This document shows, piece after piece, positions 19,094 to 37,093 of a stretch of DNA of 64,000 nucleotides. Numbering within the stretch: position 1 is the stretch's first letter; each line of letters opens with the position of its first letter. A program made the translations under genes and the position numbers. The DNA comes from Vibrio sp. HB236076. Lineage in GTDB: Bacteria; Pseudomonadota; Gammaproteobacteria; Enterobacterales; Vibrionaceae. Under the pieces are notes generated by a model, which saw only the letters and a program-made list of their open reading frames with translations, made no database searches and was not told the origin of the DNA. Location: NCBI RefSeq assembly GCF_040957575.1, contig NZ_CP162601.1:682001-746000 (forward strand), given 5' to 3'.

Positions 19094-19454
19094 GGACATC
19101 CACGACCTCAGGACACCCATGTTATGCCCTTGATATCGGGACAGTCATCCTATCTCAGGACAGCCATACTTTATGGGAAACTTGTACCGTAAAGTGAAGT
19201 GATAATGGGTGTCCCGTGATGTCTTAATATGGGTGTCCAAAGCGATACCAGGACAAAGCGACCTCAGGACACCCATGTTATGCCCTTGATATCGGTGTGG
19301 TATCGGGACAGTCATCCTATCTCAGGAAAGTCATACTTTATGAAGAGCCTTTACCGCAAAGAGCAGTGACCAAATGGGTGTCCTGTGATGTCTTAATATG
19401 GGTGTCCAGGTTTTTGGACATCCAGGTTTTGGGCAGATCAGGAGATGGGTGTCC
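19094..19454. repeat. Cluster A of the GGACANYCA/TGGGTGTCC motif family, with a duplicated ~140-base unit
   Basis: About thirteen copies of a 9-base motif fill this gap. GGACA-type copies are at 19094, 19111, 19139, 19158, 19267, 19306, 19325 (degenerate) and 19416. TGGGTGTCC copies are at 19206, 19230, 19375, 19399 and 19446. Two imperfect direct repeats, 19104-19238 and 19260-19407, each carry GGACA-type copies on the left and two inverted TGGGTGTCC copies on the right; the second has a ~10-base insertion. The facing arrangement resembles REP doublets. No protein is encoded. The same motif recurs around the RAYT gene about 12 kb away. Confidence 0.85.
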
Positions 19455-19483
19455 TGTGCTTGGTGATTGAGTGCTAATAAAAA

Positions 19484-19510
19484 AGCCAAGCTCTAATGGA
19501 GAGCTTGGCT
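19484..19510 (-). terminator. Rho-independent terminator downstream of the OYE gene
   Basis: An 11-base perfect stem AGCCAAGCTCT/AGAGCTTGGCT with a 5-base loop is followed on the minus strand by six T. It is 17 bases after the stop codon of the Old Yellow Enzyme gene. Confidence 0.92.
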
Positions 19511-19526
19511 CAAACTTGCTGAGTGA

Positions 19527-20603
19527 TCAGTTATCTAAACGAGGGTAATCGGTATAGCCAGGGGCACCGCCAAGATAAAATAGCTCTGGCTTGGCGTCAT
19601 TGAGTGGCGCGTCGGCTTTAAAGCGCTCAACTAAATCTGGGTTAGCGATAAAGGGAACGCCAAATGCAACGGTGTCGGCTTGATGGTTTGCGATGACTTG
19701 ATTCGCCTCTTCTTTGCTGTAGCCCATATTGGTCATCAGGTTGCCTTGATAAATCTCACGAGCTGTTGGGATGACATCGGCTTTTTGCTCTCCTTTGAAG
19801 TCGGCGCGCATCACATGCCAGTAAGCTAAGTCGTAGCGGTTAACCTGCTCTGCCAGGTAGCGAATGAGCCCAACAGGATCGCTGTCTTTCATGTCGTTAA
19901 AGCCGTTGAGCGGTGAAGTGCGAAGCCCAACACGACCGTTTCCCCAAACCTCGGTGACCGCATCTAGGATCTCAAATAACAAGCGTGCGCGATTTTCGAT
20001 TGAACCACCGTATTGGTCTGTGCGTTGGTTCGAGCTTTCACGTAAGAAATTATCGATTAAGTAACCATTGGCACCGTGAACTTCAATCCCATCGAACCCT
20101 GCCGCTTTAGCGTTGATTGCACCTTGTTTAAAAGCGGCGACGATCTCTGGGATCTCACTGGTTTCTAATGCGCGTGGCACGGTGTAATTTTGCTTGCCCG
20201 ATGGTGTGTGCACTTGTTCATTTTCGATCGCAATGGCACTGGCAGCCACTGGGGTTGCGCCTTGGTTGAGTTCGGGGTGACAAGCTCGGCCAGCGTGCCA
20301 AATTTGCATGACAATTTTACCGCCTTTGGCGTGGACGGCGTCGGTGACTTTCTTCCATGCGGCAATTTGTTGATCATTATAAATGCCAGGTTCTGCATAA
20401 AATGCCGAAGTGCCTTCTTTGACCATAGTACACTCAGTGATCAACAGGCCCGCACTGGCGCGTTGTGCGTAGTACTCGACCATGAGATCGTTGGGCATAT
20501 GATCCTCAGGGTTGGCACGAGCGCGAGTGAGCGGCGCCATTACAGCACGGTTGCTCAATTCGATTTGACCAAGTGAAATGGGTGAAAATAAATCTAAAGA
20601 CAT
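19527..20603 (-). CDS. Old Yellow Enzyme-family ene-reductase (NemA-like)
   Basis: This is a 358-residue FMN-dependent TIM-barrel oxidoreductase. Recognisable segments are RAVMAPLTRARA (FMN phosphate side), QIWHAGRACHP, FDGIEVHGANGYLIDNFL with the His/Asn pair that binds substrate carbonyls, and RTDQYGGSIENRARL. It would reduce the C=C bond of N-ethylmaleimide, quinones or other enones using NADPH. It is divergent from a LysR gene 84 bases away, the usual arrangement for an electrophile-inducible reductase. The physiological substrate is unknown. Confidence 0.92.
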   Translation of the reverse strand: MSLDLFSPISLGQIELSNRAVMAPLTRARANPEDHMPNDLMVEYYAQRASAGLLITECTMVKEGTSAFYAEPGIYNDQQIAAWKKVTDAVHAKGGKIVMQIWHAGRACHPELNQGATPVAASAIAIENEQVHTPSGKQNYTVPRALETSEIPEIVAAFKQGAINAKAAGFDGIEVHGANGYLIDNFLRESSNQRTDQYGGSIENRARLLFEILDAVTEVWGNGRVGLRTSPLNGFNDMKDSDPVGLIRYLAEQVNRYDLAYWHVMRADFKGEQKADVIPTAREIYQGNLMTNMGYSKEEANQVIANHQADTVAFGVPFIANPDLVERFKADAPLNDAKPELFYLGGAPGYTDYPRLDN

Positions 20604-20687
20604 GTTTGAACCTCTATCTAATGGAGAAATACACGTTGTCGAATACGATTTTTACAGCCTATAATCATATCAATAATGAAACAATAG

Positions 20688-21662
20688 GTGTTTTGGAAAG
20701 TGATTGTTCGTGATTTGGCAACAATAGATTTTAGAACCTTAAGTATTTTTGTCCTCAGTTGTCGACGTTTGAGTTTGACCCAGTGTGCCCAAGAGTTAAA
20801 TTTACCGAAATCGAGTGTCAGCAAAGCGATTGCGAAACTTGAGCAGCATTTCAGTGCGCAATTACTCGAGCGGTCGACGCGGCGATTGGTGATCACGGAA
20901 GTGGGTCAGATGGTGTTAGATAGAGCTGAACATTTGTTGGAAGAGTTTCACTCATTGGGGCATGATGTGCAAAATATGGAACAGCAAATTCAAGGTCGAC
21001 TGCGTATTTCTGCCCCTCCTGCGTTTGATTCCTATTTGTCTGAGCATATTTTTCTGCCGTTTCTTAACCAGTGGCCTAAAGTGCAAGTGACGCTTGAATC
21101 AACCGATGAGTTTATGGATTTATTTTCTCATGCGATCGATATGGCCATTCGGGTTGGTAAGGTGGTGGATGAGCGGTTAGTGGCCAAAAAGCTCGGTTAT
21201 ACGACTCGCGTTTTAGCCGCCAGCCCCGATTACTTGGCTCGGATGGGCACCCCGCATACCCCTGAGCAATTGGCAACTCATAATGGTCTTCGTTATCAGT
21301 CTGCTGCTGATGTTGGGCCGTGGAGCCTCATTTCGCACCATGAAACGGTCAATGTTGAAATCAACAGTAACTTTTCGAGCTCCACGATTGAAGCGGTGTT
21401 AAAAGCGGCAATCAATGGGTTAGGGATTGCCAATTTACCGCTCAAAAATTTGACCAATGAACTCGAAAACGGTCGGTTAGTTCGCGTGTTGCCACAATGG
21501 CACGCGATTCCGATGCCCATTTATTTGGTTTATCGTCCCGGTGCGAATAAACCGCGCCGGGTACAAGCCATGATTGAGCATATTACTCGTTTGCAAGACC
21601 AATTTCAGTTTGGTCCAAGTCACGGCTTGTGTTGTGGCCAACCTGGGCAATGTGAGAATTAA
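20688..21662 (+). CDS. LysR-family regulator divergent from the OYE gene
   Basis: The protein has up to 324 residues. The N-terminal helix-turn-helix (LSLTQCAQELNLPKSSVSKAIAKLEQ) and RSTRRLVITEVGQ place it in the LysR family, close to the CrgA/DsdC-like group that often controls reductases. The C-terminal effector domain is complete, and the tail has four Cys, two in GLCCGQPGQCEN, unusual for the family. The frame starts with a GTG at 20688; a second GTG at 20700 is equally plausible. The gene overlaps the convergent Lrp-family gene by 4 bases. It likely regulates the Old Yellow Enzyme gene. Confidence 0.9.
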   Translation: MFWKVIVRDLATIDFRTLSIFVLSCRRLSLTQCAQELNLPKSSVSKAIAKLEQHFSAQLLERSTRRLVITEVGQMVLDRAEHLLEEFHSLGHDVQNMEQQIQGRLRISAPPAFDSYLSEHIFLPFLNQWPKVQVTLESTDEFMDLFSHAIDMAIRVGKVVDERLVAKKLGYTTRVLAASPDYLARMGTPHTPEQLATHNGLRYQSAADVGPWSLISHHETVNVEINSNFSSSTIEAVLKAAINGLGIANLPLKNLTNELENGRLVRVLPQWHAIPMPIYLVYRPGANKPRRVQAMIEHITRLQDQFQFGPSHGLCCGQPGQCEN

Positions 21663-22099
21663 CGAATGTCCTTAGGCGAGTCCATGACCACCATGGTCGT
21701 GATTTCTCTCACCTGAGGAATATCGCCGAGCACGTTTGAATGAAAACGCTTGTAGGCGGCAAGGTCTTTGGTTTCCACTCGTAATAAATATTCCGTGCCC
21801 CCGGTAATGTTGTGGCACTCGGTCACCTCTGAACAAAACTGAACGTGCTCTTCAAACGCCAATTGCGCCTTTTTGCTGTGATCGGCCAAACCAATCGCGA
21901 TGTAGGCGATAAAACCAATCGATAATTTTTGTTTATCAATGATGGCTCGGTAGCCTTTGATAATACCGCTTCGCTCGAGCTCTTGTACACGACGCAAGGT
22001 GGCGGAGGGGGATAAGCCAACTTTGTCTGCCAAGTCGACATTCGCGATTCTGCCGTTTATGTCTAGCTCGCGCAATATTCTTTCGTCAATTCGGTCCAT
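21659..22099 (-). CDS. Lrp/AsnC-family transcriptional regulator
   Basis: The protein has 146 residues. An N-terminal helix-turn-helix (NVDLADKVGLSPSATLRRVQELE) is followed by a RAM/AsnC ligand-binding domain (about 65-140) containing TECHNITGGTEYLLRVE. It starts MDRIDERILREL, as is usual. It is divergent from a LysE-type exporter gene, a very common pairing in which the Lrp-like protein controls amino-acid export. Confidence 0.93.
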   Translation of the reverse strand: MDRIDERILRELDINGRIANVDLADKVGLSPSATLRRVQELERSGIIKGYRAIIDKQKLSIGFIAYIAIGLADHSKKAQLAFEEHVQFCSEVTECHNITGGTEYLLRVETKDLAAYKRFHSNVLGDIPQVREITTMVVMDSPKDIR

Positions 22100-22205
22100 A
22101 GTTATCTTTTGTTGTTATTTTTTCGCGTTGAGTATCAATAAAAGCACAAACTTGCTGAGCTTTCCAGTTAGGATTGACATCTAACCATCGATAAGAGTTA
22201 TAGGT

Positions 22206-22790
22206 ATGTTTGAGTCAATTATCCCGTTGATCGCATTTGCGTTTGTTACTACGTTCACCCCTGGGCCAAATAATCTGATGTTGATGACTTCAGGTGCCAA
22301 TATCGGCTTTATTCGCTCTTTACCTCATGTATTCGGGGTGGTGTTTGGCTTTGGTTTTATGGTGTTTCTCGTTGGTTTAGGCGCCAGCGAAGTCTTTGCG
22401 TTTTTTCCTTGGTTACATCCATTGTTAAGTTTTGCTTGTATGGGGTATTTGCTGTTTCTTGCCTATAAAATTGCCACCAGTAATCCCAATTTAGCCACGC
22501 AACAATATCAACCGATGCGATTTGTTTCGGCAATGATGTTTCAGTGGGTGAACCCGAAAAGTTGGTCAATGGCGTTGACCGCAGTGAGTGTTTATAACCC
22601 ATCGGCAAGTGGTTCTGGCTTAGTGTTGGTCACGGCGGTCTTTATGTTAGTCAATTTTCCCTCGACCACCGCTTGGGTTGTTGCCGGTAAAAAAGTTCGC
22701 GGTTGGCTCACTCACGAGTATGCCATCCGACGTTTTAATTGGGCGATGGCTTTATTGCTGTTGTTTTCTACTTTGCCGGTGATGTTTTGA
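22206..22790 (+). CDS. LysE/RhtB-family amino-acid exporter
   Basis: This 194-residue inner-membrane protein has six hydrophobic segments. The family signature FTPGPNNLMLMTSG is at residues about 18-31, and FQWVNPKSWSMALTAVSVY is the second conserved block. It would export an amino acid or derivative. The 106-base divergent gap to the Lrp-family gene should hold the regulated promoter. The substrate cannot be read from the sequence. Confidence 0.93.
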   Translation: MFESIIPLIAFAFVTTFTPGPNNLMLMTSGANIGFIRSLPHVFGVVFGFGFMVFLVGLGASEVFAFFPWLHPLLSFACMGYLLFLAYKIATSNPNLATQQYQPMRFVSAMMFQWVNPKSWSMALTAVSVYNPSASGSGLVLVTAVFMLVNFPSTTAWVVAGKKVRGWLTHEYAIRRFNWAMALLLLFSTLPVMF

Positions 22791-22944
22791 GGCTTTATCT
22801 TGACAAAAAAAGTGGCGCGAACCTTTATTCCGTACGCAAGGCCCCGTAAAAGTAAGACTTTGACTTGCTGCTGATGTAAAAAAATAAAAAGTGTTTATTC
22901 TTTCACCATGATTATTTATTTTTTCCATCACAAAGGGATGCGTT

Positions 22945-24198
22945 ATGTCATTTCACGTTAGTTTTAGCACTAAACCTTTGCTCCTTGGTGTATTGGCTGT
23001 TGGAGCGGTGTCGTTAGCCGCATTGAGCTTTGCCGATCAAGAGAGTTCGCAATCTGAAGAGATCGTCGCGGGCCAAGAGCAAAGTTTGCCCAATGGCCCT
23101 GGCGCTTCAGATCATCAAGGGCCACCTCCTGGGCCGCCGCCGAGTGCAGAAGATGAAGCGGTTCGTGCTCGTATGGGGGATACCAGTACCTTGATGGGCA
23201 CAATATCCATCCCAGACACCGTCAAAACGTGTGGCACTGATGCGGGTTATGAGCGCTTGGTGTGTTTGACCAATGTTTTGAAAGAGACCTTATCTGATGA
23301 GCAACTGGCATTGACACAACTCGATTACTCGATTGAAAAAGCCAAAACGTGGAGTAACTTGCCAGCCGGTGCCGTACCTTCTCGGCCTGGGATTTTCTTA
23401 GGCGAGCTCAGCGTTAAGCAGCGTGGCATTGTGAAAGCCATTATGATGGAAGCAACGGGAAGCGACACCAATGAAGGCTTTGATGAAATGGTGCAGACCC
23501 TCAACGCCGATGATTACATTGGTACGATCAGCACGGATTATAAAGCGGGTTATTCATCGTTTAATACCAAGTTTGCTTTTTTAGGCGACCCGAGCTCGGA
23601 TGAAGTGTGGCAACTGTATTATGGAGGTCACCATTTGGCTTTTACCAATACGTATAAAAATGGTCACATGATTGGCGCCACCCCATCGTTTCGCGGTATT
23701 GAACCTTTCCCTGCTTTCGATATGAATGGGCGCACGAATATCCCGATGCAACAAGAGCGAGATGCTTTTGCCGCTATGCTAAATTCTCTTAGCCAAGATC
23801 AGCGTCAACAGGCCAAGTTAGCCGGAGTTTATCGAGATATTTTGGCTGGCCCTCAAGAGGATGATGCGATTCCCGAGACACAAGAGGGGGTGTCTGTCTC
23901 TCAATTGAACGATGAGCAAAAAGCCTTGGTTATGGCGGCGATAGAAACTTACGTCGGTGATATTGATGAAGCCGATGCCAATGCTTATATGGAGAAGTAC
24001 CGCAGTGAATTGGACGACACAACGATTGGTTATTCAGGCACTGTTGAGATGAATAGTGAAGATGACTATGTGCGTATTCATGGTCCGAGTGTGTGGATTG
24101 AATTCTCGTTGCAGTCGAACAAGTCAACCAACAAAGTCGGTATTCACCCGCATTCGGTATGGCGTGATCGCACCGATGATTATGGAGGCCAGCAGTGA
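22945..24198 (+). CDS. Secreted DUF3500-family protein
   Basis: The protein has 417 residues. A signal peptide or N-terminal anchor (about 1-30, ending SFADQ) is followed by a Pro/Gly-rich linker (GPPPGPPPSAED) and then a large globular domain. GGHHLAFTNTY, SFRGIEPFPAF and the C-terminal HPHSVWRDRTDDYGG are hallmarks of DUF3500 (PF12006). The conserved His residues suggest metal binding or catalysis, but no activity is established as far as I know. The last bases overlap the next gene (GTGA), so the two are translationally coupled. Confidence 0.82.
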   Translation: MSFHVSFSTKPLLLGVLAVGAVSLAALSFADQESSQSEEIVAGQEQSLPNGPGASDHQGPPPGPPPSAEDEAVRARMGDTSTLMGTISIPDTVKTCGTDAGYERLVCLTNVLKETLSDEQLALTQLDYSIEKAKTWSNLPAGAVPSRPGIFLGELSVKQRGIVKAIMMEATGSDTNEGFDEMVQTLNADDYIGTISTDYKAGYSSFNTKFAFLGDPSSDEVWQLYYGGHHLAFTNTYKNGHMIGATPSFRGIEPFPAFDMNGRTNIPMQQERDAFAAMLNSLSQDQRQQAKLAGVYRDILAGPQEDDAIPETQEGVSVSQLNDEQKALVMAAIETYVGDIDEADANAYMEKYRSELDDTTIGYSGTVEMNSEDDYVRIHGPSVWIEFSLQSNKSTNKVGIHPHSVWRDRTDDYGGQQ

Positions 24199-24776
24199 GG
24201 TTAAAGGCATACTCGGTACGCGGCTATGCGATTCGTGTTTGGCTTGTGCTCGGCGCATTAATGATGAGTGTCCACAGTTGGGCACATTCATTGCCGGGCA
24301 GTCAGCTAGTGCTGTCGCATCAAAAAGATCAACCCTTGATACTGACACTGCAATTTCCATTGGAAGAGGCGATCATAGCCAATCCTAAATTGACGTCACT
24401 CAATGACGAGACAGTTGGAGAGGCCATATCTCAAAAGGGCGCACACGCGTTGGGCGAATACCTTGGTCAGCATGTACAATTGCGGCAAGGGAAAAATGCG
24501 CTGCCCATGACGATGACCAAAGCCAGTGTTGAAACGGGCTACAATGCTCATGTGGGGGAGTTTAAACAATTAAATATTGACTATGAACTGCCTTTAGTAC
24601 GTGAGCAAGCGTTACCCTTGCTATTGAACTATAATGCTATATTACACCAAATCCGCAGTCATAAGGTGGATGTGTATTGGCAAAACCCCGGGGGGGATAA
24701 GCTGAGATTGGCTCACTTTGGTTATCACCTGCAGGATGGAAAACCCAAATCGTACTTATTGACGGCGCCTCAATAG
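24195..24776 (+). CDS. Periplasmic protein of unknown function, coupled to the DUF3500 gene
   Basis: The protein has 193 residues and begins with a GTG that overlaps the DUF3500 stop codon by 4 bases. A signal peptide covers about residues 1-30 (cleavage probably after HSWA). The mature part has no motif I recognise; it is soluble and mixed alpha/beta in composition, with LRLAHFGYHLQDGKP near the end. Coupling implies it works with the DUF3500 protein, for example as a chaperone or partner subunit. This is inference only. Confidence 0.7.
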   Translation: MRLKAYSVRGYAIRVWLVLGALMMSVHSWAHSLPGSQLVLSHQKDQPLILTLQFPLEEAIIANPKLTSLNDETVGEAISQKGAHALGEYLGQHVQLRQGKNALPMTMTKASVETGYNAHVGEFKQLNIDYELPLVREQALPLLLNYNAILHQIRSHKVDVYWQNPGGDKLRLAHFGYHLQDGKPKSYLLTAPQ

Positions 24777-24812
24777 CGATTGGTCATTCGTTTCTAAAGT
24801 GTCAAGCCAAGT

Positions 24813-24848
24813 AAAAACCTGATGACCGTCGGTGGTCAGCAGGTTTTT
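24813..24848. terminator. Bidirectional terminator between the DUF3500 operon and the alginate lyase gene
   Basis: AAAAACCTG...CAGGTTTTT plus TGACC/GGTCA form a long hairpin with one interior mismatch and A/T runs at both ends. It lies between convergent genes. Confidence 0.85.
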
Positions 24849-24882
24849 ACACAATTGGCTTAAGTAAGGTAATACTACTCGA

Positions 24883-25740
24883 TTATGGCGTTTTCACGTG
24901 ATAACTGAGCTCGGTAAAATGCGCTTCGCTTTCACCATTGGTAAATTGGTTATAGACCCCTGCTTTAAAGTAGCTGAGCAGGTGACGCCAGTAATCAATG
25001 TCTTTTTCTACCATGCGCTGGCCATTGACGTCTATCGCCAGGGTTTTGTTGCCAACGGTGATCGTGAAATCGGTACTTTTGCCTTGCGGGGCTGGCCCGA
25101 GGTCGATTTTCGAATAGGCAACATCGGCACGACACATTTCTTTGTCTTTATTTTTCTTACCAAAACTGCCTTTACAGATCACCGCATTGTTTTTGGTGAT
25201 GGCCCAAAAATGACCTTTTACCCCTTGATTGTCCTCTTTCCACACCACACGCAATAAAGGGTGAGGGACATTGTGAGTGCCTAAATCATCCAAGCCTTTA
25301 TTGTGTACCTGTAAGAAGGTGATCTCGTTTTGTTTAGACGTTGAATTGGCCATGCTTTGTTGTGGGTGCATGATTTCGACATTGGCATTTAGAGTATAGA
25401 AATGATCGGGTAAATCGGTGCGAAAGTTTTTTTGCACTCTCAGCTCGTTGCGCAAGTGATCATTGGCCATTTTAAATACCAGAGCTTGGCTTTGTTTGTC
25501 GACGTAAAAGTTGTCGTTCACGATGCCGGTAAAGTCATTATCAAGGCCAAAGTATTCTTTATTGCCTTTTTTGCCATTGGGATCGGAGATTTGCAGCTCA
25601 GAAGCGTTGAGAATATTGGCAAATTGAGAGTAATTAGCAGGCTCGCCGAGTTGACCGGATGGGTTAGAAAATTCAACACCAGCATAACTCATTGATGACA
25701 TGACCGCTAAGCCAGAAACGACAAGGTTTGATTTTATCAT
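24883..25740 (-). CDS. Secreted polysaccharide lyase family 7 (alginate lyase)
   Basis: The protein has 285 residues and a signal peptide (MIKSNLVVSGLAVMSS to about residue 20). The three PL7 active-site blocks are present: RNELRV, QVH and YFKAGVYNQ. Family members cleave alginate by beta-elimination; the His of QVH and a Tyr of the YFKAG block are catalytic. A Val in QVH is generally linked with polymannuronate or mixed preference, Ile with polyguluronate. I chose 25740 (AAGG site 7 bases upstream) over the frame start at 25770. No other alginate genes are adjacent. Confidence 0.92.
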   Translation of the reverse strand: MIKSNLVVSGLAVMSSMSYAGVEFSNPSGQLGEPANYSQFANILNASELQISDPNGKKGNKEYFGLDNDFTGIVNDNFYVDKQSQALVFKMANDHLRNELRVQKNFRTDLPDHFYTLNANVEIMHPQQSMANSTSKQNEITFLQVHNKGLDDLGTHNVPHPLLRVVWKEDNQGVKGHFWAITKNNAVICKGSFGKKNKDKEMCRADVAYSKIDLGPAPQGKSTDFTITVGNKTLAIDVNGQRMVEKDIDYWRHLLSYFKAGVYNQFTNGESEAHFTELSYHVKTP

Positions 25741-25963
25741 AGTAGGGCCTTTTGTATTATAATAGTTCAAAAGTGGGTATTTTTTATCACAAGTGGATTT
25801 AAGATAAAAATGGCGGGCTAAAAAGTGTGCGTTAATGCACTTTTCATCTCGGTTTAGGTATTACTTAGCTCACAAAAATCACCTTCAAGAAAGCGTGCCT
25901 GTCGTGATTGCTCTCGTTTGTGCGTATGCTGATAGTCTTGCCAACGACAGTGATGTTTATAAG

Positions 25964-26437
25964 ATGGAAATTATTCAAGCGCAACCATGTCATTTACCAC
26001 AATTGGTGCCAGTTTTTGATGCTTATCGTGTTTTTTATCAACAAGAGAGCGATCTTAACTTGGCTGAAGCCTTCCTTCGCCAACGAATAGAAAAGCAAGA
26101 GTCGGTCATTTTTCTTGCAATTGATGAGAAAGGAAAGGCATTGGGCTTTACCCAGCTTTATCCCAATTTTTCATCGGTCTCAGCCAAAAGAACCTGGCAG
26201 CTGAATGATCTGTATGTGGTGAAGTCTGCGAGAAGGCAAGGGGTCGCGAAGGCTTTGATGGAACACGCGTGCCAGTTCGCCAAGCGAGGCGGCGTGAAGG
26301 GGATTGCGCTTGAAACGGCCGAGTCAAACCATTCTGCACAGCGCCTTTATGAGTCATTAGGGTATGTGAAAGAACGTGGTACCTATCACTATTTTTTGTC
26401 GTTCATTGAGCCTGAAAGCACACCAAAATCACAATAA
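25964..26437 (+). CDS. GNAT-family N-acetyltransferase
   Basis: The protein has 157 residues. The acetyl-CoA-binding motif A is seen in LNDLYVVKSARRQGVAKALM (R-x-x-G-x-A), followed by NHSAQRLYESLGY in motif B. The frame extends upstream to 25835, but the domain starts at the ATG 25964. The substrate is unknown. It is 14 bases upstream of the ACT-domain gene and probably heads a three-gene operon ending in glycerate kinase. Confidence 0.88.
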   Translation: MEIIQAQPCHLPQLVPVFDAYRVFYQQESDLNLAEAFLRQRIEKQESVIFLAIDEKGKALGFTQLYPNFSSVSAKRTWQLNDLYVVKSARRQGVAKALMEHACQFAKRGGVKGIALETAESNHSAQRLYESLGYVKERGTYHYFLSFIEPESTPKSQ

Positions 26438-26451
26438 ATCAAGGCGGAAAA

Positions 26452-26868
26452 ATGCTTGGCATTACCGAACTAAAGACACTCCTGGCGCAGATGTCACCAG
26501 AGCTTGATGACAAACAGTATGTGTTTTGCCTGTTTGACGGCTCGCTTGTACAAGCTTGTCAGTATCAACCTATCGCCACGTTTGTGGAAGAGGAAGGGTT
26601 AACCTTAGTTATTGAGCAAGTGCGGGCTCAGCAGGCGGGATTGAAGTGGGTGTCCAGCTTTAGAAAAATCACCTTAAAAGTACATTCGAGTTTAGATGCG
26701 GTGGGGCTTACTGCCGCAGTGGCACGGGCTTTGGCTGAGCAAGGGATCAGTGCCAATGTTATTGCCGCTTACTATCACGATCACATTTTCGTTCCGAGCC
26801 AAGAGGCAAAGCGGGCGATGAGTACCCTACAAGCATTGAGCCATCAGTTTAAAACCACAGAGGATTGA
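26452..26868 (+). CDS. ACT-domain protein (ACT_7/DUF2241 type)
   Basis: The protein has 138 residues with two tandem ACT-like halves, as in the small stand-alone ACT family with the C-terminal motif YHDHIFVP. Such proteins are thought to bind amino acids or other small ligands; no enzyme activity is expected. It is followed after one base by the glycerate kinase gene, so it is co-translated. An exact TGGGTGTCC occurs inside the coding sequence at 26647. Confidence 0.85.
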   Translation: MLGITELKTLLAQMSPELDDKQYVFCLFDGSLVQACQYQPIATFVEEEGLTLVIEQVRAQQAGLKWVSSFRKITLKVHSSLDAVGLTAAVARALAEQGISANVIAAYYHDHIFVPSQEAKRAMSTLQALSHQFKTTED

Positions 26869-28114: not shown

Positions 28115-28453
28115 TTAGGCGAGGTGAACAGGGCCGTGATCATCACAGTGATCGCCATGCTGGTGATGAAGCCGACCATCGACGATATAATCGATGTGAT
28201 CGCCGTGTTGAATCGCTTCATGCCCACAACCAGGGCCGTGCACATGCTCGCCACAAGAATGAGTTGGGTGACAGCCCTCTGGGTTATCGGAGGTGACCTG
28301 TAATTGGTGCTCATCACAGTGATCACCGTGTGGGTGATGCAGCTTGCCATCGACTAGATAGTCAACATGTCCATCGTGCTCAATGGCTGTGTGCCCACAA
28401 TCTGGGCCATGAGTGTGGGTTGTGTGGCTATGGGGTTTAGAACATGACATCAC
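28115..28453 (-). CDS. Cys/His-rich putative metal-binding protein with a tandem duplication
   Basis: The protein has 112 residues, roughly a quarter of them His or Cys. It consists of two similar copies of a ~35-residue unit: HGPDCGHTAIEHDGHVDYLV..HPHGDHCDEH and HGPGCGHEAIQHGDHIDYIV..HQHGDHCDDH. Single-unit relatives exist in other proteobacteria under misleading names such as zinc transporter permease. No signal peptide or membrane span is present. It probably binds zinc, nickel or cobalt in the cytoplasm as a store or buffer. The upstream gap holds a cluster of the GGACANCCA motifs. Confidence 0.75.
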   Translation of the reverse strand: MMSCSKPHSHTTHTHGPDCGHTAIEHDGHVDYLVDGKLHHPHGDHCDEHQLQVTSDNPEGCHPTHSCGEHVHGPGCGHEAIQHGDHIDYIVDGRLHHQHGDHCDDHGPVHLA

Positions 28454-28548: not shown

Positions 28549-28829
28549 GGACACCCATAGCTTTAGGACATCGCTTTTAGGACACCCATAACTTGTTTCC
28601 TAGACCCCTATTATTTCCTGGGCACCCATAGATAGATTCATTTTTGGATCCCATCATTTATTTGAGGACACCCACCATCAGGGGACACTCACTTTCTGGA
28701 GATACCCACGAGATAGTTTTGAAATGGTTATCTGGACCGCCACTTTGTATCGCTTTTGAATTTGCTTGGACAGCCATAAAACGTGTATTAATCCGTTCAA
28801 AACACGTACAACACGCTCTGGACACTCAT
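28549..28829 (+). repeat. Cluster B of the GGACANCCA motif family
   Basis: Exact GGACACCCA occurs at 28549, 28580 and 28667. Variants are GGGCACCCA at about 28620, GGACACTCA at 28683 and 28820, GGAGATACCCA near 28699, GGACCGCCA at 28734 and GGACAGCCA at 28768. All read in the same direction on the plus strand. They lie in the 487-base gap between the divergent Cys/His-rich and OmpV-like genes. Apart from promoters, nothing else was recognised in this gap. Confidence 0.8.
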
Positions 28830-29678: not shown

Positions 29679-29711
29679 TTAACCAAGGTGGGCGCTCTGA
29701 AAAATTTACAC

Positions 29712-29743
29712 GGACACCCACTTAAGATTGATAAGGACAGCCA
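29712..29743 (+). repeat. Two GGACANCCA motif copies downstream of the OmpV-like gene
   Basis: GGACACCCA at 29712 and GGACAGCCA at 29735 lie in direct orientation 23 bases apart, in the convergent gap before the homocysteine methyltransferase-like gene. They share orientation with cluster B. Confidence 0.75.
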
Positions 29744-29910: not shown

Positions 29911-29919
29911 ATCAGCGAA

Positions 29920-30822: not shown

Positions 30823-30959
30823 TCTTACATTCTTTACTACTCAATTTACATGCCGTGGATTCAAGCATATTTTTTGTTTTGGGAAAATAACTTTTTCGTC
30901 TAAAACGGTGAGCAATTTACAGGTAGCGTGTCACTCATTCCGTTATCGATGTTTTTCAT

Positions 30960-31928
30960 TTAAGCTCGCTGTTTGTGATAATGGAGACGGCGAAGTTCTG
31001 CAACACCGCAAACTGCCGTTTTAAAATGGCGTCCAAAACTTTCTGATAACAAGAGCCAATCGTCTGTGTCCATGTCTAAACGTGTTAAAATGGGGCTTGC
31101 GGGAGTGGTGAGGTGCCCGAGTTTATCTGGACGAACAATCTGACCGAGTGTTTCTACCAGCGCTAAATAATCGAGAAAAGAATATTCAATTCCTGTGCTT
31201 ATTTGGTTTTGTCTCTGATTGCCTATAAACCCAAATAACGGCTTTTTAGGTAGAGAGTCAAGTTGCCCAAGTCTGCGATCGCCTTGACAGCTCACACTAT
31301 GTATTCGTTCATAAATTGACGTGAATTCATTTTCTTCTAAAGAGCTCGCTTCTCCAGATCGCACGGGGTTTAAGTCGACATAAACCATGCAACTTAATAA
31401 GGTTTGTTCATCTAATAACGCTTGCGATTTAAATCTTCCTTCCCAAAAACGCCCTTTACAATCATCTTCCTTATTCGCACGTCGCGCGAGGTATTCGTTT
31501 ATATTGCGCATAAACCACGAAATACTCATCAACTGTTGACGCCAACGTTCAATGATGAGCTCGACTTGAAAACGCTCTTCTTTAGGTAGAGAAGGCTGTA
31601 TTAACCACCTTTGGATGATCGGAGGTGCCCGGTATAGGGAAGTCCAGCGTTTAACTACGTCTTGGTCGCTCCATGTAAGGGCTTGCTTTTGGTCGACGTG
31701 TAACACCAAGTGATAGTGATTAGACATAATGGCATAGGCACAAATATCAATGGCGAAGACTTGGCTCAGCAGTCTAAGTCTTTCAATGACCCATACACGG
31801 CGATGTTCGAAATTCTTGCCTGAATAATCATCTTTACCACACAGATAAGCTCGTCTGACACAGCGGGAAATGCAATGGTAATAGCAAGTGTCTTGAAGGG
31901 AAATAATCGAAGAACGAGGCTGAGTCAT
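30960..31928 (-). CDS. REP-associated tyrosine transposase-like protein (RAYT, Y1/HUH family)
   Basis: The protein has 322 residues. The Y1 transposase core is evident: an N-terminal YYHCISRCVRRAYLC, the HUH motif in MSNHYHLVLHVD, and the catalytic Tyr in INEYLARRAN followed by GRFWEGRFKSQALLD. A C-terminal region of about 120 residues follows, longer than in IS200/IS605 TnpA. RAYTs are domesticated, single-copy relatives of TnpA that in several bacteria recognise dispersed REP palindromes. No terminal inverted repeats or target duplications were seen around the gene. It lies within the territory of the GGACANCCA motif family, its probable partner. Confidence 0.88.
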   Translation of the reverse strand: MTQPRSSIISLQDTCYYHCISRCVRRAYLCGKDDYSGKNFEHRRVWVIERLRLLSQVFAIDICAYAIMSNHYHLVLHVDQKQALTWSDQDVVKRWTSLYRAPPIIQRWLIQPSLPKEERFQVELIIERWRQQLMSISWFMRNINEYLARRANKEDDCKGRFWEGRFKSQALLDEQTLLSCMVYVDLNPVRSGEASSLEENEFTSIYERIHSVSCQGDRRLGQLDSLPKKPLFGFIGNQRQNQISTGIEYSFLDYLALVETLGQIVRPDKLGHLTTPASPILTRLDMDTDDWLLLSESFGRHFKTAVCGVAELRRLHYHKQRA

Positions 31929-32129
31929 GTGATTACCTTTGCTGTTTATTTATACAGTTAATTAAACTTAGCCATCATTTTAGTCTTGGTCAAGGAATGA
32001 CCAGTTATTTTTTGACGTGAGGTGACGAAGACGGAAAGCATAATAGCGTCAACATGCCAAGAAGGTATTAAGAGCATCGAGCAACGGCTGATTTATCTTG
32101 ATAATTCTTATGACTTGGTAAAAAGAAAG

Positions 32130-32159
32130 TGGGTGTCCTTTCGTTTTAAATGAGTGTCC
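32130..32159 (+). repeat. Two TGGGTGTCC-type motifs upstream of the RAYT gene
   Basis: TGGGTGTCC at 32130 and TGAGTGTCC at 32151 are 21 bases apart in direct orientation, in the gap between the divergent RAYT and ABC-transporter genes. Their orientation is opposite to that of the copies at 28.5-29.7 kb. The rest of the 342-base gap (31929-32270) holds the ABC promoter described separately. Confidence 0.8.
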
Positions 32160-32208
32160 GGTGAGTAGGCCTGCTCTGTATTTCCAGTCCTGATTTTCAT
32201 GACAAAGA

Positions 32209-32247
32209 TTGATGTTACCCTTTTTTATTGTTATGTTATAACGTAAC
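32209..32247 (+). promoter_or_regulatory. Promoter with overlapping Zur-like palindrome before the FecBCD-type importer
   Basis: TTGATG at 32209-32214 and TATGTT at 32232-32237 are 17 bases apart. Over the -10 lies an 18-base palindrome with one mismatched pair, GTTATGTTATAACGTAAC (32230-32247). Its core GTTATGTTATAAC differs at one base from the gammaproteobacterial Zur consensus GTTATANTATAAC. A repressor bound here would block transcription. Zinc control is an inference from the motif alone. Confidence 0.5.
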
Positions 32248-32270
32248 TATTGTTTCTTGTCTCAATTGTG

Positions 32271-33086
32271 ATGAAAGATTTTATTGTGCCAATGGTGGTT
32301 GCCAATGGCTTATCAGCGAAAAGCCCACAGGGTTGGCAGGCATTACGAAGCGCGGATTTTATGCTTTACCCAGGCGAATGTGTGGCGGTGATTGGACCTA
32401 ATGGCAGTGGTAAATCGAGCCTCTTGAAGTGTTTGTCGGGGGAGTATTCACCCTGTAGAGGAAAGCTTTTTCTTGAAGGAATGAGTATGGAGCAAATCTC
32501 AGTGTCTGAGCTGGCTAAAAAAGTGGCACTGGTTTCGCAGCACGAGTACTTCGATCCAAGATTGACCGTGTGTGAGTATGTTCAGCTTGGCCGGATCCCA
32601 CACACATTTTGTTGTTCTGTATCAACGCATCAGCAGGCGGTAGACCTGGCACTTTCTGATGTGGGCTTGTTGGAAAAAGCAAATCGAAAGATGGGTGTCC
32701 TATCTGGCGGTGAGCAACAAAGGGCGAATATTGCTCGGGCATTGGCTCAGCATCCACAACTCTTACTGCTCGATGAACCAACCAATCATCTAGACCCTTT
32801 AGCGCGTATTGAAATTCTTGATTTAATTAAAAGAAAAGGCATTACAGCTATTGCGGTTTTACACGATTTGCCTTTGGTTGCCCCATTCGCTGACAAAGTC
32901 ATTTTAATGTCGGAACAAAGAATGACCGTTTGTGGCCCGACAACCGATGTTCTTACCAATACGTACATAGAGCCTATCTTTGGGCTAAACGTGATGACCT
33001 TTATTCACCCTTACACGCGCGAAACGGTTTATCACTTTGAAGCGTCGTGTACCCCAACTTGTCATGTATCAAAAGGAGCTGCTTAA
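32271..33086 (+). CDS. ABC transporter ATP-binding protein, FecE/BtuD type
   Basis: The protein has 271 residues. The Walker A motif GPNGSGKSS, signature LSGGEQQR, Walker B LLLLDEPTNHLD and switch His in VLHDLP are all intact. It belongs to the group serving siderophore, cobalamin or heme importers and would energise the permease encoded two genes downstream. The frame begins at a TTG (32250), but I chose ATG 32271 because the TTG lies immediately after the operator. No clear ribosome-binding site is seen for either. The stop overlaps the next start codon (TAATG). Confidence 0.9.
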   Translation: MKDFIVPMVVANGLSAKSPQGWQALRSADFMLYPGECVAVIGPNGSGKSSLLKCLSGEYSPCRGKLFLEGMSMEQISVSELAKKVALVSQHEYFDPRLTVCEYVQLGRIPHTFCCSVSTHQQAVDLALSDVGLLEKANRKMGVLSGGEQQRANIARALAQHPQLLLLDEPTNHLDPLARIEILDLIKRKGITAIAVLHDLPLVAPFADKVILMSEQRMTVCGPTTDVLTNTYIEPIFGLNVMTFIHPYTRETVYHFEASCTPTCHVSKGAA

Positions 33087-34048
33087 TGAAGTGGTCTGTT
33101 TTCTCAACGTTATTGTGTTCCACCTTTATATCTCAATATGCCTTGGCTGAAAAAACGCAATACCCAGTCACCTTAGAAAACTGTGGTTATCCGATCACCA
33201 TTGATCAAGCCCCGACGAGAGCAATCTTTCATGACATTAACATGAGTGAAATGGCGTTTTCTCTTGGTCTGCAAGCCCAAACCATTGGTGTGACGGGCAT
33301 TACAGGTTGGTATAAAATGTCGCCTTCTTTTCAGCAGCAATTGGGTGACATTCCTGAGTTAGCCGCCAAATACCCCTCTTTAGAAACCATGGTGGCGGCC
33401 AAGCCGGATTTCTTTTTCGCCGGCTGGAATTACGGTATGAAAGTAGGCGGTGACGTTACCCCTCAAACCTTAAAGCCTTACGGTATTAATACTCTGATTT
33501 TATCGGAAAGCTGTAGCCATGTGGGTAAAACGGAAAAAGCGAGCTTAAATCTTCTTTATCAAGATATGACTAACCTAGGTATTATTTTCGACCAACAAGA
33601 TAAAGCGCAGCAACTGATTCAATCTTGGCAAGTAAGAGTTGACCATGTAAAGCAACGTGCTAATCAGTTTGAAGGAGAGACACCAAAAGTATTCTTGTAT
33701 GACTCGGGAACGGATAAGCCTTTCACTGCCGGTAAATATGCGATGCCGACCGCTTTGATTGAGGCCGCAGGTGGGAAAAATATCACCGATAACCTCGCTG
33801 CAAGTTGGGCAACGACATCGTGGGAAAACGTGGCAACACAGGACCCTGAAATCATCATTTTATTAGACTATCAATCGGCAAACGGTGCTGACGACCTTAA
33901 ACATTTTTTAGAGCAGCATCCTTTAATGAAACACACTCGCGCGGTCAAAAACAGCCGTTACGTCAAACTTCGTTATGAAGAGTTAACCCCTGGGCCGGCA
34001 AATATTGAAGCTATCGAGTCGCTTTCCGCCGCTTTCTTCCCTAAATAA
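33086..34048 (+). CDS. Periplasmic substrate-binding protein of a FecBCD-type importer
   Basis: The protein has 320 residues with a signal peptide (about 1-22, ending ALAE). It has the class III two-lobe fold: an N-terminal YPVTLENCGYPITIDQAPTR, a long backbone helix in the middle (TEKASLNLLYQDMTNLG..) and a C-terminal TPGPANIEAIESLSAAF. Such proteins bind metal chelates, cobalamin or heme. The start at 33086 has an AGGAG site 7 bases upstream and overlaps the ATPase stop. The ligand is unknown. The Zur-like operator points to zinc or a zinc chelate, but iron chelates remain possible. Confidence 0.88.
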   Translation: MKWSVFSTLLCSTFISQYALAEKTQYPVTLENCGYPITIDQAPTRAIFHDINMSEMAFSLGLQAQTIGVTGITGWYKMSPSFQQQLGDIPELAAKYPSLETMVAAKPDFFFAGWNYGMKVGGDVTPQTLKPYGINTLILSESCSHVGKTEKASLNLLYQDMTNLGIIFDQQDKAQQLIQSWQVRVDHVKQRANQFEGETPKVFLYDSGTDKPFTAGKYAMPTALIEAAGGKNITDNLAASWATTSWENVATQDPEIIILLDYQSANGADDLKHFLEQHPLMKHTRAVKNSRYVKLRYEELTPGPANIEAIESLSAAFFPK

Positions 34049-34073
34049 GCGACCAAAGGTTGAATAATTAACG

Positions 34074-35075
34074 GTGCGTATTTCTAAGTATCAGCTAGCA
34101 TGGGGTATCGGTGTGCTGGCTGTTTTTTTGGTGTTTGGTTTGAGTTTAATGTTGGGCTCAGTGACCTTAACGGTTCAACAAATTACCTGGGGGCTATGGC
34201 ATTTTTTTGCGCAAGATGTCGATATTTCGCAGCGAATTTTAATTGATATCCGTGTCCCTCGCGCCTTACTTGCTCTTATCGCTGGAGCAGGGTTGGCCAT
34301 GGTTGGGGGGTTATTGCAAACGGCAACAAAAAATGACCTAGCGGATCCGTTTTTATTTGGTCTTTCATCTGGCGCATCTGCTGGAGCCGTGCTGGTGATC
34401 ACGCAATTTGGCCAAGTATTGGGTTTGTGGTCCCTGCCTATTGCGGCTTTTATCGGCGGTATTGTCTCGGCGGGAACGGTATTAGTATTGTTTGCAATGC
34501 AGAAAAAGCGCGGTCATCAAGATCTCATACTATGCGGCTTGGCGATTTCATTTTTATTTGGTGCCTTAACCAGTTTTTTGATTTTTTCTGGTGATCAGCG
34601 AGCCGCAAGCTCAATTTTGTTTTGGACAATGGGCGGGCTGGGCTTAGCCCGTTGGGATAATCTACTGTTTGTTATTGTGGGTGTCCTGGCTGTTGTGGTA
34701 CTGGTGGTGCGTTATCGAGAACTGGACACCCTTTTAGTGAGTGAGCAAACTACGCGCTCATTGGGGATCGATGTCAATCGCTTGCGGACTGAAATCTTTT
34801 TGTGTTGTGCTTTTTGTACCGCCGCTATTGTTGCTTTGACGGGCGTTATCGGCTTTATCGGTTTAATGGTGCCTCATTTGGTTAGGCCTTTTTCGGGAAT
34901 GACACACAAGCTGTCAATGCCACTTATCGCGCTTTGGGGCGCCGTGATATTGTCGGTTGGTGACATAGCCAGTCGTACTCTACTCGCTCCCCAAGAGTTG
35001 CCAATTGGCATTGTTACTGGGGCGATCGGTGGGGTATTTGTCTTGTATTTACTTTTACAGCGCCCGAGTGGATAA
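34074..35075 (+). CDS. FecCD/BtuC-type ABC transporter permease
   Basis: The protein has 333 residues and about ten membrane segments. Family landmarks are DIRVPRALLALIAGAGLAM, the TKNDLADPFLFGLSSGASAGA region and GVIGFIGLMVPHLVR, which contacts the ATPase. The start is a GTG at 34074 with a distant ribosome-binding site. It completes an operon in the order ATPase, binding protein, permease. No TonB-dependent receptor gene is present in the window. Confidence 0.92.
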   Translation: MRISKYQLAWGIGVLAVFLVFGLSLMLGSVTLTVQQITWGLWHFFAQDVDISQRILIDIRVPRALLALIAGAGLAMVGGLLQTATKNDLADPFLFGLSSGASAGAVLVITQFGQVLGLWSLPIAAFIGGIVSAGTVLVLFAMQKKRGHQDLILCGLAISFLFGALTSFLIFSGDQRAASSILFWTMGGLGLARWDNLLFVIVGVLAVVVLVVRYRELDTLLVSEQTTRSLGIDVNRLRTEIFLCCAFCTAAIVALTGVIGFIGLMVPHLVRPFSGMTHKLSMPLIALWGAVILSVGDIASRTLLAPQELPIGIVTGAIGGVFVLYLLLQRPSG

Positions 35076-35084
35076 AGCTCACGT

Positions 35085-35119
35085 TGGCCGTATCAAGCAA
35101 CAACAAATTGATACGGCCA
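35085..35119. terminator. Hairpin between the convergent permease and msrA genes
   Basis: TGGCCGTATCAA/TTGATACGGCCA form a perfect 12-base stem with an 11-base loop between two convergent genes. T-runs are not immediate on either side, but the stem is strong. Confidence 0.75.
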
Positions 35120-35124
35120 GGGTG

Positions 35125-35745
35125 TTAGGTGTTTTTACTAACCACTTCTCCCCATAAGCTTTTGATTTTACTATCACGACCACAGCTTGCGCGGTAGAAT
35201 TTGTATTTTAGTGAATGCGTTTGGTAGTAATTTTGGTGGAAATCTTCTGCGGGATAGAAGGTCTTGGCAGGCAGAATTTGTGTCACGATGTCATCTTTAA
35301 AAGGTTTGGATTGTTGCAGGTCTTGTAACGATGCCTCAAAAGCCGTTTGTTGTTTATCGTTTTGATAAAACAGAGCGGTTTTGTAAGGTGACCCTTTATC
35401 GCAGAACTGACCATTAGCGTCAGTAGGGTCGATGGTTTTCCAGTAGTAATCCACTAAGGTCTCAAGCGTGATCTTGTCGTCATCATAATGAATTTCAACC
35501 GCCTCAAAGTGACCAGTACGCTTGCCGGCCACCTGTTGATAGGTCGGGTTTGGAGTATCACCGCCAGTGTAACCAGAGATGGCTTCTGTAACGCCCTCTA
35601 ATGCTTCAAAGTCAGATTCAACACACCAAAAACACCCACCGGCAACGATCAGGGTTTGTGGTGCCGCGTAACTCATCGTTAAAGACGACCCTAATAGCAG
35701 GCCACTAGCTAGGAGTGGCCGAATATATTTCTTTTGGATTTTCAT
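35125..35745 (-). CDS. msrA: Exported peptide-methionine (S)-S-oxide reductase MsrA
   Basis: The protein has 206 residues. A signal peptide (about 1-27, MSYAAP cleavage region) indicates a periplasmic form. The catalytic motif GCFWC follows directly, with YTGGDTPNPTYQQV and the conserved FHQNYY further on. It reduces the S epimer of methionine sulfoxide in proteins. A resolving Cys is likely the one in YRASCGRD near the C-terminus. Because of the signal peptide it is probably not the main cytoplasmic MsrA. Confidence 0.93.
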   Translation of the reverse strand: MKIQKKYIRPLLASGLLLGSSLTMSYAAPQTLIVAGGCFWCVESDFEALEGVTEAISGYTGGDTPNPTYQQVAGKRTGHFEAVEIHYDDDKITLETLVDYYWKTIDPTDANGQFCDKGSPYKTALFYQNDKQQTAFEASLQDLQQSKPFKDDIVTQILPAKTFYPAEDFHQNYYQTHSLKYKFYRASCGRDSKIKSLWGEVVSKNT

Positions 35746-35871
35746 TGTTGTGAGCTCACTTTTATTAAGTACCTCATTATAATGACCGGCATTGTCAGAA
35801 ATAATTTCAGCACCAGTAAATCAATCGATGCCATTTTTAGCTCGCGACGTGGCCATTTAGTGAACACTCGC

Positions 35872-36300
35872 TCACGTTTTAGACCTTGGGTTTTCGGCGT
35901 TGGTAAGCTGTAACAAATCCCATTTATTGCCGTATAAGTCTTCAAAAACGACGACAGTGCCGTACGCTTCTTCTCTTGGCTGTTCATGAAATACCACGCC
36001 ACGTTGTTGCATCATTTTATAATCTCGCCAAAAGTCATTGGTTTGCAAAAATAAAAAAACGCGCCCACCGGTTTGATTGCCCACAGCGTTTTTCTGCGTT
36101 GGGGTAGAGGCTTGTGCCAATAACAAATTGGTGCCGTTTGAATTAGGCGGTGAGACGAGTACCCAGCGTTTTCCATCTCCTAAATCAGTATCTTCGATGA
36201 GTGTGAATGCCAATTTTTGGGTGTAAAACTCAATGGCTTCATCATAGTCATCTACGACAAGGGCAACGTTTCCGATCTGTTGTTTGATCAATTCTGTCAT
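35872..36300 (-). CDS. Glyoxalase/bleomycin-resistance fold protein
   Basis: The protein has 142 residues of the vicinal oxygen chelate fold. It has NVALVVDDYDEAIEFYTQKL at the start, WVLVSPP.NGTNLLLAQA in the middle and GTVVVFEDLYGNKWDLLQL at the end. The expected metal ligands of the family (His/Glu) are only partly evident. Its reaction is unknown. The frame is open back to 36486 through the motif cluster, but ATG 36300 has a strong AAGGAG site. Confidence 0.88.
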   Translation of the reverse strand: MTELIKQQIGNVALVVDDYDEAIEFYTQKLAFTLIEDTDLGDGKRWVLVSPPNSNGTNLLLAQASTPTQKNAVGNQTGGRVFLFLQTNDFWRDYKMMQQRGVVFHEQPREEAYGTVVVFEDLYGNKWDLLQLTNAENPRSKT

Positions 36301-36345
36301 GGAGAGCTCCTTTGTATCAGCGTTAACTTTGACTGATCGTTCTAT

Positions 36346-36600
36346 GACTGTCCAGAGAATATAATGACTGTCCCAGAACCGATATAGAGGTGTAAGCGGC
36401 GACTGTCCTAGAACTTGTGCGGTGGGTGTCCGATACATATGTTTTACAACATGGGTGTCCCAATTAGATGTGGGTGTCCAATCCAAAGAAGCACTTGAAT
36501 GATTCGACTTTGATCGGCTCTCAATATAGATGGCTGTCCTTTGATATTCAGTCTGACGAGAGCAACTTTGGTCGTGTAATGCTCTATAATGTGGCTGTCC
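36346..36600 (+). repeat. Cluster E of the TGNNTGTCC motif family
   Basis: Eight copies lie in the 365-base gap between the divergent glyoxalase-like and rof genes. TGACTGTCC occurs at about 36345 and 36364, CGACTGTCC at about 36400, TGGGTGTCC at 36423, 36452 and 36471, and TGGCTGTCC at 36531 and 36592. All read in the same orientation, with spacings of about 19-60 bases. This is the orientation of the copies at 32130 and opposite to that of cluster B. Confidence 0.82.
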
Positions 36601-36665
36601 AGTGTGAAAAGAGCGGTGACATTGGCGATGGACTCTCTCGTCAATGACTTAGCCTAGGGGGAAGT

Positions 36666-36911
36666 ATGATTCGTTGCGGTCATTATGATTATATTGAGTT
36701 GGTGTGTTTATTTCGTTACCCCATAGAGCTGACGCTGAAGTCGGGTGAGGTGATGACCGGGGTCGCGCGCGATACCGTCAGAAATCAAGCTCGAGAGGAG
36801 TGTATTTTACTGTGCGGTGAAACTGGGGAGGCGTTGATTATACTGGATCGCATTCACAAGCTGAAAGTCTTAGTCGAAAACCCTCATTTAAAAGAAGTGG
36901 TTTTGGAGTGA
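36666..36911 (+). CDS. rof: Rho-binding antiterminator Rof
   Basis: The protein has 81 residues of the Rof/YaeO family (PF07073). MIRCGHYDYIELVCLFRYP at the start and the beta-strand-rich remainder (LTLKSGEVMTGVA, LDRIHKLKVL) match. Rof binds the primary RNA site of Rho and inhibits termination. A strong AGGGGGAA ribosome-binding site precedes the ATG. Its 3' end is overlapped by the SMEK-like remnant on the other strand. Confidence 0.88.
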   Translation: MIRCGHYDYIELVCLFRYPIELTLKSGEVMTGVARDTVRNQAREECILLCGETGEALIILDRIHKLKVLVENPHLKEVVLE

Positions 36912-37093
36912 GGGCAAGTGGGTGTCCTTGTGGTGCGCAGGTTGTATGCAACGTTGAGAATATCAATAAAGAGTCTTTCAGCACTCTTATTAATATCATT
37001 AAAACCAGCTCTGTTCTGAGTTGTCACCACATTGGCGAATATCGCAAATCTTTCCGCTAACGACTTAAGGGAATCTTCTCGCTTTATGTTCAT
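36884..37093 (-). pseudogene. Truncated SMEK-domain gene (N-terminal remnant)
   Basis: The frame encodes 69 residues. The first 52 (RFAIFANVV, GFNDINKSAERLFIDILNVAYNL) look like the start of the SMEK domain found at the N-terminus of larger proteins, many in defence-like loci. After residue 52 (near 36938) the similarity stops and the frame continues as RTTRTPTCPHSK through a TGGGTGTCC motif at 36919 and into the end of rof. The rest of the gene is missing. Ten bases separate the break from the motif. Confidence 0.6.
36918..36927 (+). repeat. Single GTGGGTGTCC motif at the edge of a truncated gene
   Basis: This copy lies 6 bases past the rof stop codon and about 10 bases from where the SMEK-like similarity ends on the other strand. 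It has the same orientation as cluster E. Confidence 0.75.

Follow-up and report, generated by a model that had tools for sequence, protein, structure and literature searches.

A short linear motif as the probable terminal sequence of elements carrying subclass 2.3 TnpA_Y1 transposases in Vibrio sp. HB236076 and related genomes

Among the described Y1 transposase systems, the repetitive extragenic palindrome (REP)-associated tyrosine transposases (RAYTs) are flanked by inverted REPs (Nunvar 2010, PMC2817692, in excerpt), and the group 2 and group 3 TnpAREP enzymes cut single-stranded DNA at CT or CA adjoining the repeats, with GTAG helping to choose the site (PMC8266576, in excerpt). TIRYTs are Y1 transposases with inverted repeats unrelated to GTAG REPs (Di Nocera 2013, PMC3733652, in excerpt). 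For subclass 2.3 of the TnpA_Y1 proteins, a survey of 2018 reported no REP-like flanking repeats (Quentin et al., PMC6006769). The subject of the present analysis is a stretch of 64,000 nucleotides of Vibrio sp. HB236076 (contig NZ_CP162601.1, positions 682,001 to 746,000; here called the window, whose own numbering is used below), in which a gene for a transposase of this subclass lies amid scattered copies of a 9-base motif. It is proposed that the motif is very probably the terminal recognition sequence of an insertion sequence (IS)-like element, the enzyme being a subclass 2.3 TnpA_Y1 transposase with locally accumulating short linear ends. Searches with TGGGTGTCC and with the motif pattern GGACACCCA found no report of such an end in the open-access literature, as judged from titles and the beginnings of abstracts.

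The protein encoded in the window carries the signature of subclass 2.3 (table 1 of PMC6006769), with NHYH at residues 70–73, WE at 162–163 and YVDLNP at 183–188, and also resembles that subclass in its length (322 aa versus a median of 325 aa), in the presence of several diverged copies per genome and in its occurrence in marine gammaproteobacteria. The two differ in that REP-like sequences were not reported for the subclass, whereas most of the loci examined here have short inverted ends facing outward. Y183-P188, H71 and H73 are invariant across 42 sequences, and some relatives have NHLH or YADLNP instead. The fold matches that of the E. coli RAYT, and in the structure model helices past the Y motif would form the long C-terminal part. 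With the HUH histidines and the tyrosine kept, the enzyme probably cuts and rejoins single-stranded DNA at the ends. The original prediction of a Y1/HUH gene at this place is confirmed, but the gene is neither the only one of its kind nor easily called domesticated: in the genome holding the window (G000) ten matches to the protein fall at nine paralogous loci, the tenth being a fragment of one of them, the other copies are 43–65% identical to it, one locus has four in-frame stops, and the ends are IS-like.

The pattern TGNNTGTCC matches 42 times in the window, as compared with a mean of 7.34 (standard deviation 2.60, maximum 17) in 100 dinucleotide shuffles, none of which reached 42. When the copies were sorted against open reading frames (ORFs) of at least 100 aa for 15–42 kb, 30 were intergenic between 19,094 and 36,927 (table 1), so that the excess noticed earlier is real but the figure of about 35 intergenic copies comes down to 30. 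Five of the seven copies at 36.3–36.6 kb overlap the TTG-started form of the ORF at 35872–36486 and are scored as intergenic because the ATG at 36300 was taken as its start. Long ORFs hold seven matches (15097, 24265, 25226, 26647, 29644, 32692 and 34678), those at 26647, 32692 and 34678 being exact TGGGTGTCC within coding sequence near the gene, and one further match, at 11506, lies beyond the ORF comparison. All four matches between 39.6 and 64 kb (45055, 47237, 51610 and 53206) are within ORFs of at least 120 aa, in agreement with the earlier remark that the housekeeping genes there are free of intergenic copies. Genome-wide, TGGGTGTCC is found 92 times and the reversed pattern 17 times. 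No Rfam family reached the gathering score over the arrays.

Table 1. The transposase gene and the groups of motif copies in the window.
Feature	Coordinates	Strand	Intergenic copies	Remarks
Subclass 2.3 TnpA_Y1 (HUH/Y1 tyrosine) transposase gene, 322 aa	30960..31928	-		Pfam Y1_Tnp, E 7e-6
Outward ends TGGGTGTCC and TGGCTGTCC, low side	29712..29743	-	2	Downstream of the gene
Outward ends TGGGTGTCC and TGAGTGTCC, high side	32130..32159	+	2	Upstream of the gene, 202 and 223 bp away
Outer low-side array	28549..28828	-	6	All outward; no tandem unit found, short repeats around the motif only
Outer high-side array	36345..36600	+	7	All outward; no tandem unit found, short repeats around the motif only
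Lone outward TGGGTGTCC	36919..36927	+	1
Distant cluster	19094..19454	.	12	Mixed orientation; BIME-like; in a partly duplicated segment

The 18 intergenic copies between 28.5 and 36.9 kb all face away from the gene, eight of eight on the low side being on the minus strand and ten of ten on the high side on the plus strand. The same polarity is found 1.5–6.5 kb from the gene when the nine loci of the genome and five variants of the motif are taken together (57 outward, 12 inward), and 19 of 19 copies of TGCCTGTCC within 6.5 kb of the gene at 554613 are outward. In seven of the paralogue neighbourhoods outward arrays outnumber inward ones by 27 to 7, with 4 ties (p 0.0008), in a test made without loci 563940 and 514151 and with the low side of 1977276 only partly covered. 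In a second genome (G010) the polarity is clear only within 1.5 kb, with 13 outward and 3 inward copies. Groups farther away, such as that at 19.1–19.45 kb of the window, are mixed in orientation.

Relatives of the protein also have such ends. One genome per species was scanned, yielding at least 563 relatives among at least 591 matched stretches, and the best 80 loci were kept, which are gammaproteobacterial where record titles tell. Of the 1,024 five-letter words, TGTCC has the strongest outward bias in the 500 bp next to the gene (209 outward, 52 inward), and TG stands four bases ahead of it in 153 of the 209 outward copies versus 6 of the 52 inward ones. Counted by locus, the core TGNNTGTC points mainly outward at 71, inward at 1 and is tied at 8 (10, 10 and 60, respectively, when read backwards), and the full TGNNTGTCC is mostly outward at 54. 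End copies are present within 600 bp of the gene on both sides at 35 of the 80 loci and on at least one side at 55. An upstream end is found within 600 bp at 53 loci, and at 45 of these the nearest one is 68–124 bp ahead of the start of the match. TGNNTGTCC becomes sparser with distance, from 2.05 copies per kb at 0–0.5 kb to 0.10 at 6–10 kb, the reversed control being at 0.07–0.12. The ends start with GGAC or, in one lineage, GCCA. The ending differs in a few lineages, being ATGGGTGGC in the copies of G015, GGGTGGC at two Shewanella metallivivens loci and TGGGTGTCT or TGGGTGTCA in Pseudoalteromonas shioyasakiensis. In G058, which has 36 scored matches in all, inspection of 20 regions (L090–L109) revealed no such end, and the end sequence there seems to be different.

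That the motif marks a terminus of the element follows from the comparison of copies within one genome (G003; 17 protein matches, 12 regions fetched), as the homology between them stops at the motif. An alignment of eight copies from a single subgroup was anchored on GGACACACAC, which supplies the first 10 inside bases, so that identity was read from bases 12–60: inside the left edge it is 0.85, 0.72, 0.71 and 0.66 in successive 12-base blocks past the first, and outside it is 0.35 adjoining the end and then 0.25–0.27. A free MAFFT alignment gave the same left edge, with homology stopping at GGACA. On the right side seven copies end with GTGTGTC(C/T). Presence and absence of a whole element can be followed in Pseudoalteromonas, where two P. 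shioyasakiensis records have an element of approximately 1.4 kb between the genes for isocitrate dehydrogenase and acetolactate synthase, and the same place is without it in CF6-2, HL-AS2 and THAF3. When HL-AS1 is compared with HL-AS2, a 63-bp intergenic repeat flanks the element on both sides in HL-AS2 (L208 2240–2302 and 3731–3794) and occurs once in HL-AS1, so that the junction is not clean.

The copies are concentrated around the paralogues. In the genome holding the window, 78 of the 92 TGGGTGTCC are within 30 kb of one of the nine loci, as are 28 of 40 TGCCTGTCC, 24 of 36 TGTGTGTCC, 30 of 50 TGACTGTCC and 9 of 18 TGGCTGTCC, against 11.1% for random positions; in G010, 60 of 91 TGTGTGTCC are within 20 kb of six genes (of seven matches) versus 4.8% expected. 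Two paralogues are each surrounded mainly by a dinucleotide variant of their own. When only GG, GC, AC, CC and TG are counted within 15 kb, the gene at 554613 has CC in 19 of 19 copies and that at 1298839 TG in 19 of 19, whereas the window's gene has GG 19, GC 5, AC 4 and CC 1, and AC accounts for 10 of 16 at C2:864270. With every dinucleotide counted in the fetched DNA, three others (TT, TA and TC) appear among 14 copies at 554613, and TG remains 11 of 11 at 1298839.

The variable bases also agree between the two ends of a locus. The searches together yielded 165 loci, of which 57 are flanked on either side by the full motif at no more than 450 bp, and the nearest ends belong to the same class, defined by the first variable base as G, as C or T, or as A, at 51 of them, against an average of 25.7 in shuffles, none of 20,000 of which reached 51; the 57 loci are not independent because close paralogues are included. 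A quick protein tree of 85 rows, computed without mixture, requires 7 changes of the two-state class. Of the 45 G-class rows, 42 have Arg at residue 141 and one has Lys, whereas the 40 C/T-class rows include 32 with Lys and 8 with Arg. In a ranking based on the first stored pairings only, Lys/Arg at this position, which was found by searching many columns, took the top rank among 546 residue states when scored by independent pairs (3.5 pairs in agreement, none against; sign test p 0.125). Residue 160, near the W motif, is Arg in 43 of 45 G-class rows and His in 29, Arg in 7 and Lys in 4 of 40 C/T-class rows, the Alcanivorax C/T-class rows keeping Arg. In E. coli the W-motif region reads the GTAG guide (PMC6006769), and we infer by analogy that the corresponding region of subclass 2.3 may read its own guide.

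Gene-less arrangements of the ends were found as well. The fetched parts of the genome holding the window contain 22 inverted pairs of 36–42 bp (strict and relaxed patterns taken together), mostly at 477–510 and 579–585 kb, which look like minimal elements; the distant cluster of the window includes a 39-bp inverted pair at 19416–19454. Four inverted pairs, folded with DNA parameters, form stems of −5.7 to −8.9 kcal/mol. Single ends have no excess of hairpins when a sample is scored against mononucleotide shuffles, the mean z value being −0.15 for the adjoining 45 nt (n=80), −0.49 for the DNA past the end (n=80) and −0.48 in controls (n=60), which agrees with the initial observation that the elements mostly lack stable stems. 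The bases just outside two inverted pairs (G000:C1:1298591 and 1303292, in L020) are mutually complementary (TATCG/CGATA and TAACG/CGTTA), as if the pairs had been inserted into small palindromes.

Across 60 relatives, with fragments included among the protein matches, the median ratio of combined motif to control counts is 1.11 in the 18 genomes with at least three matches versus 0.63 in the 33 without (p 0.0025), and the nine that have just one or two resemble those with none, the highest combined ratio among genomes without a match being 1.42 (G013). The correlation of motif number with the gene, put forward originally as support for the link, has the right direction but is weak in whole-genome counts; single variants give p 0.018 (TGTGTGTCC) and p 0.055 (TGGGTGTCC). 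Taken beyond proximity, the link between motif family and transposase is supported by location, orientation, element boundaries and paralogue-linked variants.

Several observations weigh against the motif being the end of a locally moving element. In the genome holding the window polarity is slight within 1.5 kb of the gene (19 outward versus 11 inward), at 6.5–15 kb (26 versus 22) and at 15–40 kb (12 versus 10), and in G010 it is weak past 1.5 kb (10 versus 5, then 16 versus 13). At the 80 loci, which are not independent because several come from one genome, the pooled counts of TGTCC show no outward bias between 500 bp and 4 kb (49/49, 89/99 and 157/163, outward/inward), the bias coming back at 4–7 kb (249/185) and fading at 7–10 kb (219/202), and the full TGNNTGTCC has no excess either way (tied or empty) at 25 loci and is inward at 1. 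The right boundary of the G003 copies is less sharp than the left one, identity across 60 bases being 0.44 on the inner and 0.28 on the outer side, and the Pseudoalteromonas comparison gives no base-exact junction because it is made between species at 78–90% identity. A search for exact empty sites within the genome holding the window gave no convincing non-self junction: nearly all spanning matches are the sites themselves with a gap, the sole other one being L010_496203 versus L013 at 74%. Raised counts of TGTGTGTCC are found without a protein match in G006 (25, reversed control 15) and G004 (22, control 8).

One alternative is a canonical RAYT/REP or REPIN system, in which the gene would mobilise GTAG-type palindromes and the 9-mer would be merely a piece of them. 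RAYT/REP, REPtron and REPIN systems share with the present one the Y1 HUH fold, a gene between two inverted repeats and gene-less derivatives between genes (PMC2817692 and PMC8266576, in excerpt), and the short inverted pairs described above also fit. However, GT[AG]G is missing from the ends, which start otherwise (GTAG hairpins were not scanned for separately), no GTAG or CTAC word is among the top six five-letter and twelve six-letter outward words shown for the 80 loci, TGTCC leading the former, and the DNA adjoining single ends folds no better than controls. The end is of only 9 bases, its two variable bases are tied to the enzyme lineage, the copies stay near the gene and the arrays are mostly one-directional: close pairs have the same direction in 68 of 104 cases in the examined parts of the genome holding the window and in 89 of 99 at the 80 loci, unlike bacterial interspersed mosaic elements (BIMEs), whose neighbours alternate, the 19.1–19.45 kb cluster being mixed. 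This explanation is improbable, and the suggestion of a REP class, in the strict sense, is not supported on account of the missing GTAG and of the folding. TIRYTs and TIRtrons are alike in having a Y1 gene with non-REP terminal inverted repeats (TIRs) and moderately abundant repeat families (PMC3733652, in excerpt); they differ in that 20 of those 26 belong to subclass 2.1 (PMC6006769), many with a GGGGWSAS motif. That motif is shared by only some TIRs in the excerpt of PMC3733652, the base frequencies at the ends studied here show another one, and the strings TGTCC and GGACA are absent from the main text, figures apart, of that paper. IS200/IS605 elements (IS608 and ISDra2) have the same catalytic fold, but are without terminal inverted repeats (PMC2817692, in excerpt) and are recognised through subterminal secondary structures (PMC6006769, in excerpt).

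The copies might instead be regulatory sites or resemble terminators, serving for instance as an operator of the transposase and adjoining genes; they do lie mostly between genes, and TTTTT is likewise outward-biased near the gene (479 versus 303). Such a role is nevertheless highly improbable for sequences at which the homology between copies stops, whose variants track the paralogue and which occur at kilobase distances, both in arrays and as inverted pairs. A more serious rival, at least for part of the arrays, accepts mobile ends and attributes clusters and polarity to segmental duplication, tandem slippage or the inheritance of old composite units rather than to local transposition. The 19.1–19.45 kb cluster is partly duplicated (a segment at 19103–19408, with repeat copies spaced by 156, 167 and 169 bp), near-identical tandem ends occur at some loci (L151, L163 and L077), and the ATP-binding cassette (ABC) transporter operon at 32250–35075, between two arrays of the window, is accessory: its permease was matched in 4 of 22 other genomes of the genus, once partially, with other neighbours in the three examined (G003, G018 and G022), where the operon is present in 19.5 kb of fetched DNA without the other neighbours it has in the window. 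A role of this operon as composite cargo is suggestive only. Against duplication, TRF finds no array in the outer arrays of the window, and repeat comparison gave only short repeats, 67–93% alike, around the motif. As a general account duplication appears rather unlikely.

Under the preferred interpretation, that of an IS-like element with short linear ends, the full unit would be GGACANNCA-gene-TGNNTGTCC, with core TGNNTGTC and with two variable bases that follow the enzyme lineage. The single strand would be cut at TGNNTGTC(C), the short end taking the place of GTAG plus hairpin, and the products would reinsert nearby, leading to local clustering. Gene-less derivatives, namely single ends, same-direction arrays and 36–42 bp inverted pairs resembling REPINs or miniature inverted-repeat transposable elements, would accumulate around the parent gene, up to some 30 kb from it and for the most part pointing outward. 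If any two outward ends could be used, the nested shells of ends around host genes would be explained. We put forward more tentatively, as a possibility short of probable, the wider proposal that subclass 2.3 consists of active transposases reading a short linear, hairpin-less end, two bases of which would be read via residue 141 (Arg for the G class, Lys for the C/T class) and perhaps 160, that local transposition builds the nested outward shells, and that the enclosed host genes may become mobile.

Other features were noted in passing. Three TGCCTGTCC at an exact 129-bp spacing (G000:C1:342090-342356), far from any paralogue, possibly belong to a coding tandem repeat. In the window, 28115–28453 encodes a small His- and Cys-rich protein with two similar repeats, and a tRNA-Met gene (anticodon CAT) at 39531–39606 lies between the repeat zone and rpoD.

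The ends described here supply the missing DNA partner for a transposase subclass that had been reported without one, and their pattern makes the subclass testable across many marine genomes. The two-base variation, together with the candidate residues, provides a starting point for asking how Y1 enzymes recognise hairpin-free DNA, and the local, outward and paralogue-linked accumulation of ends would, if true, amount to a natural experiment in the target choice of a single-strand transposase.

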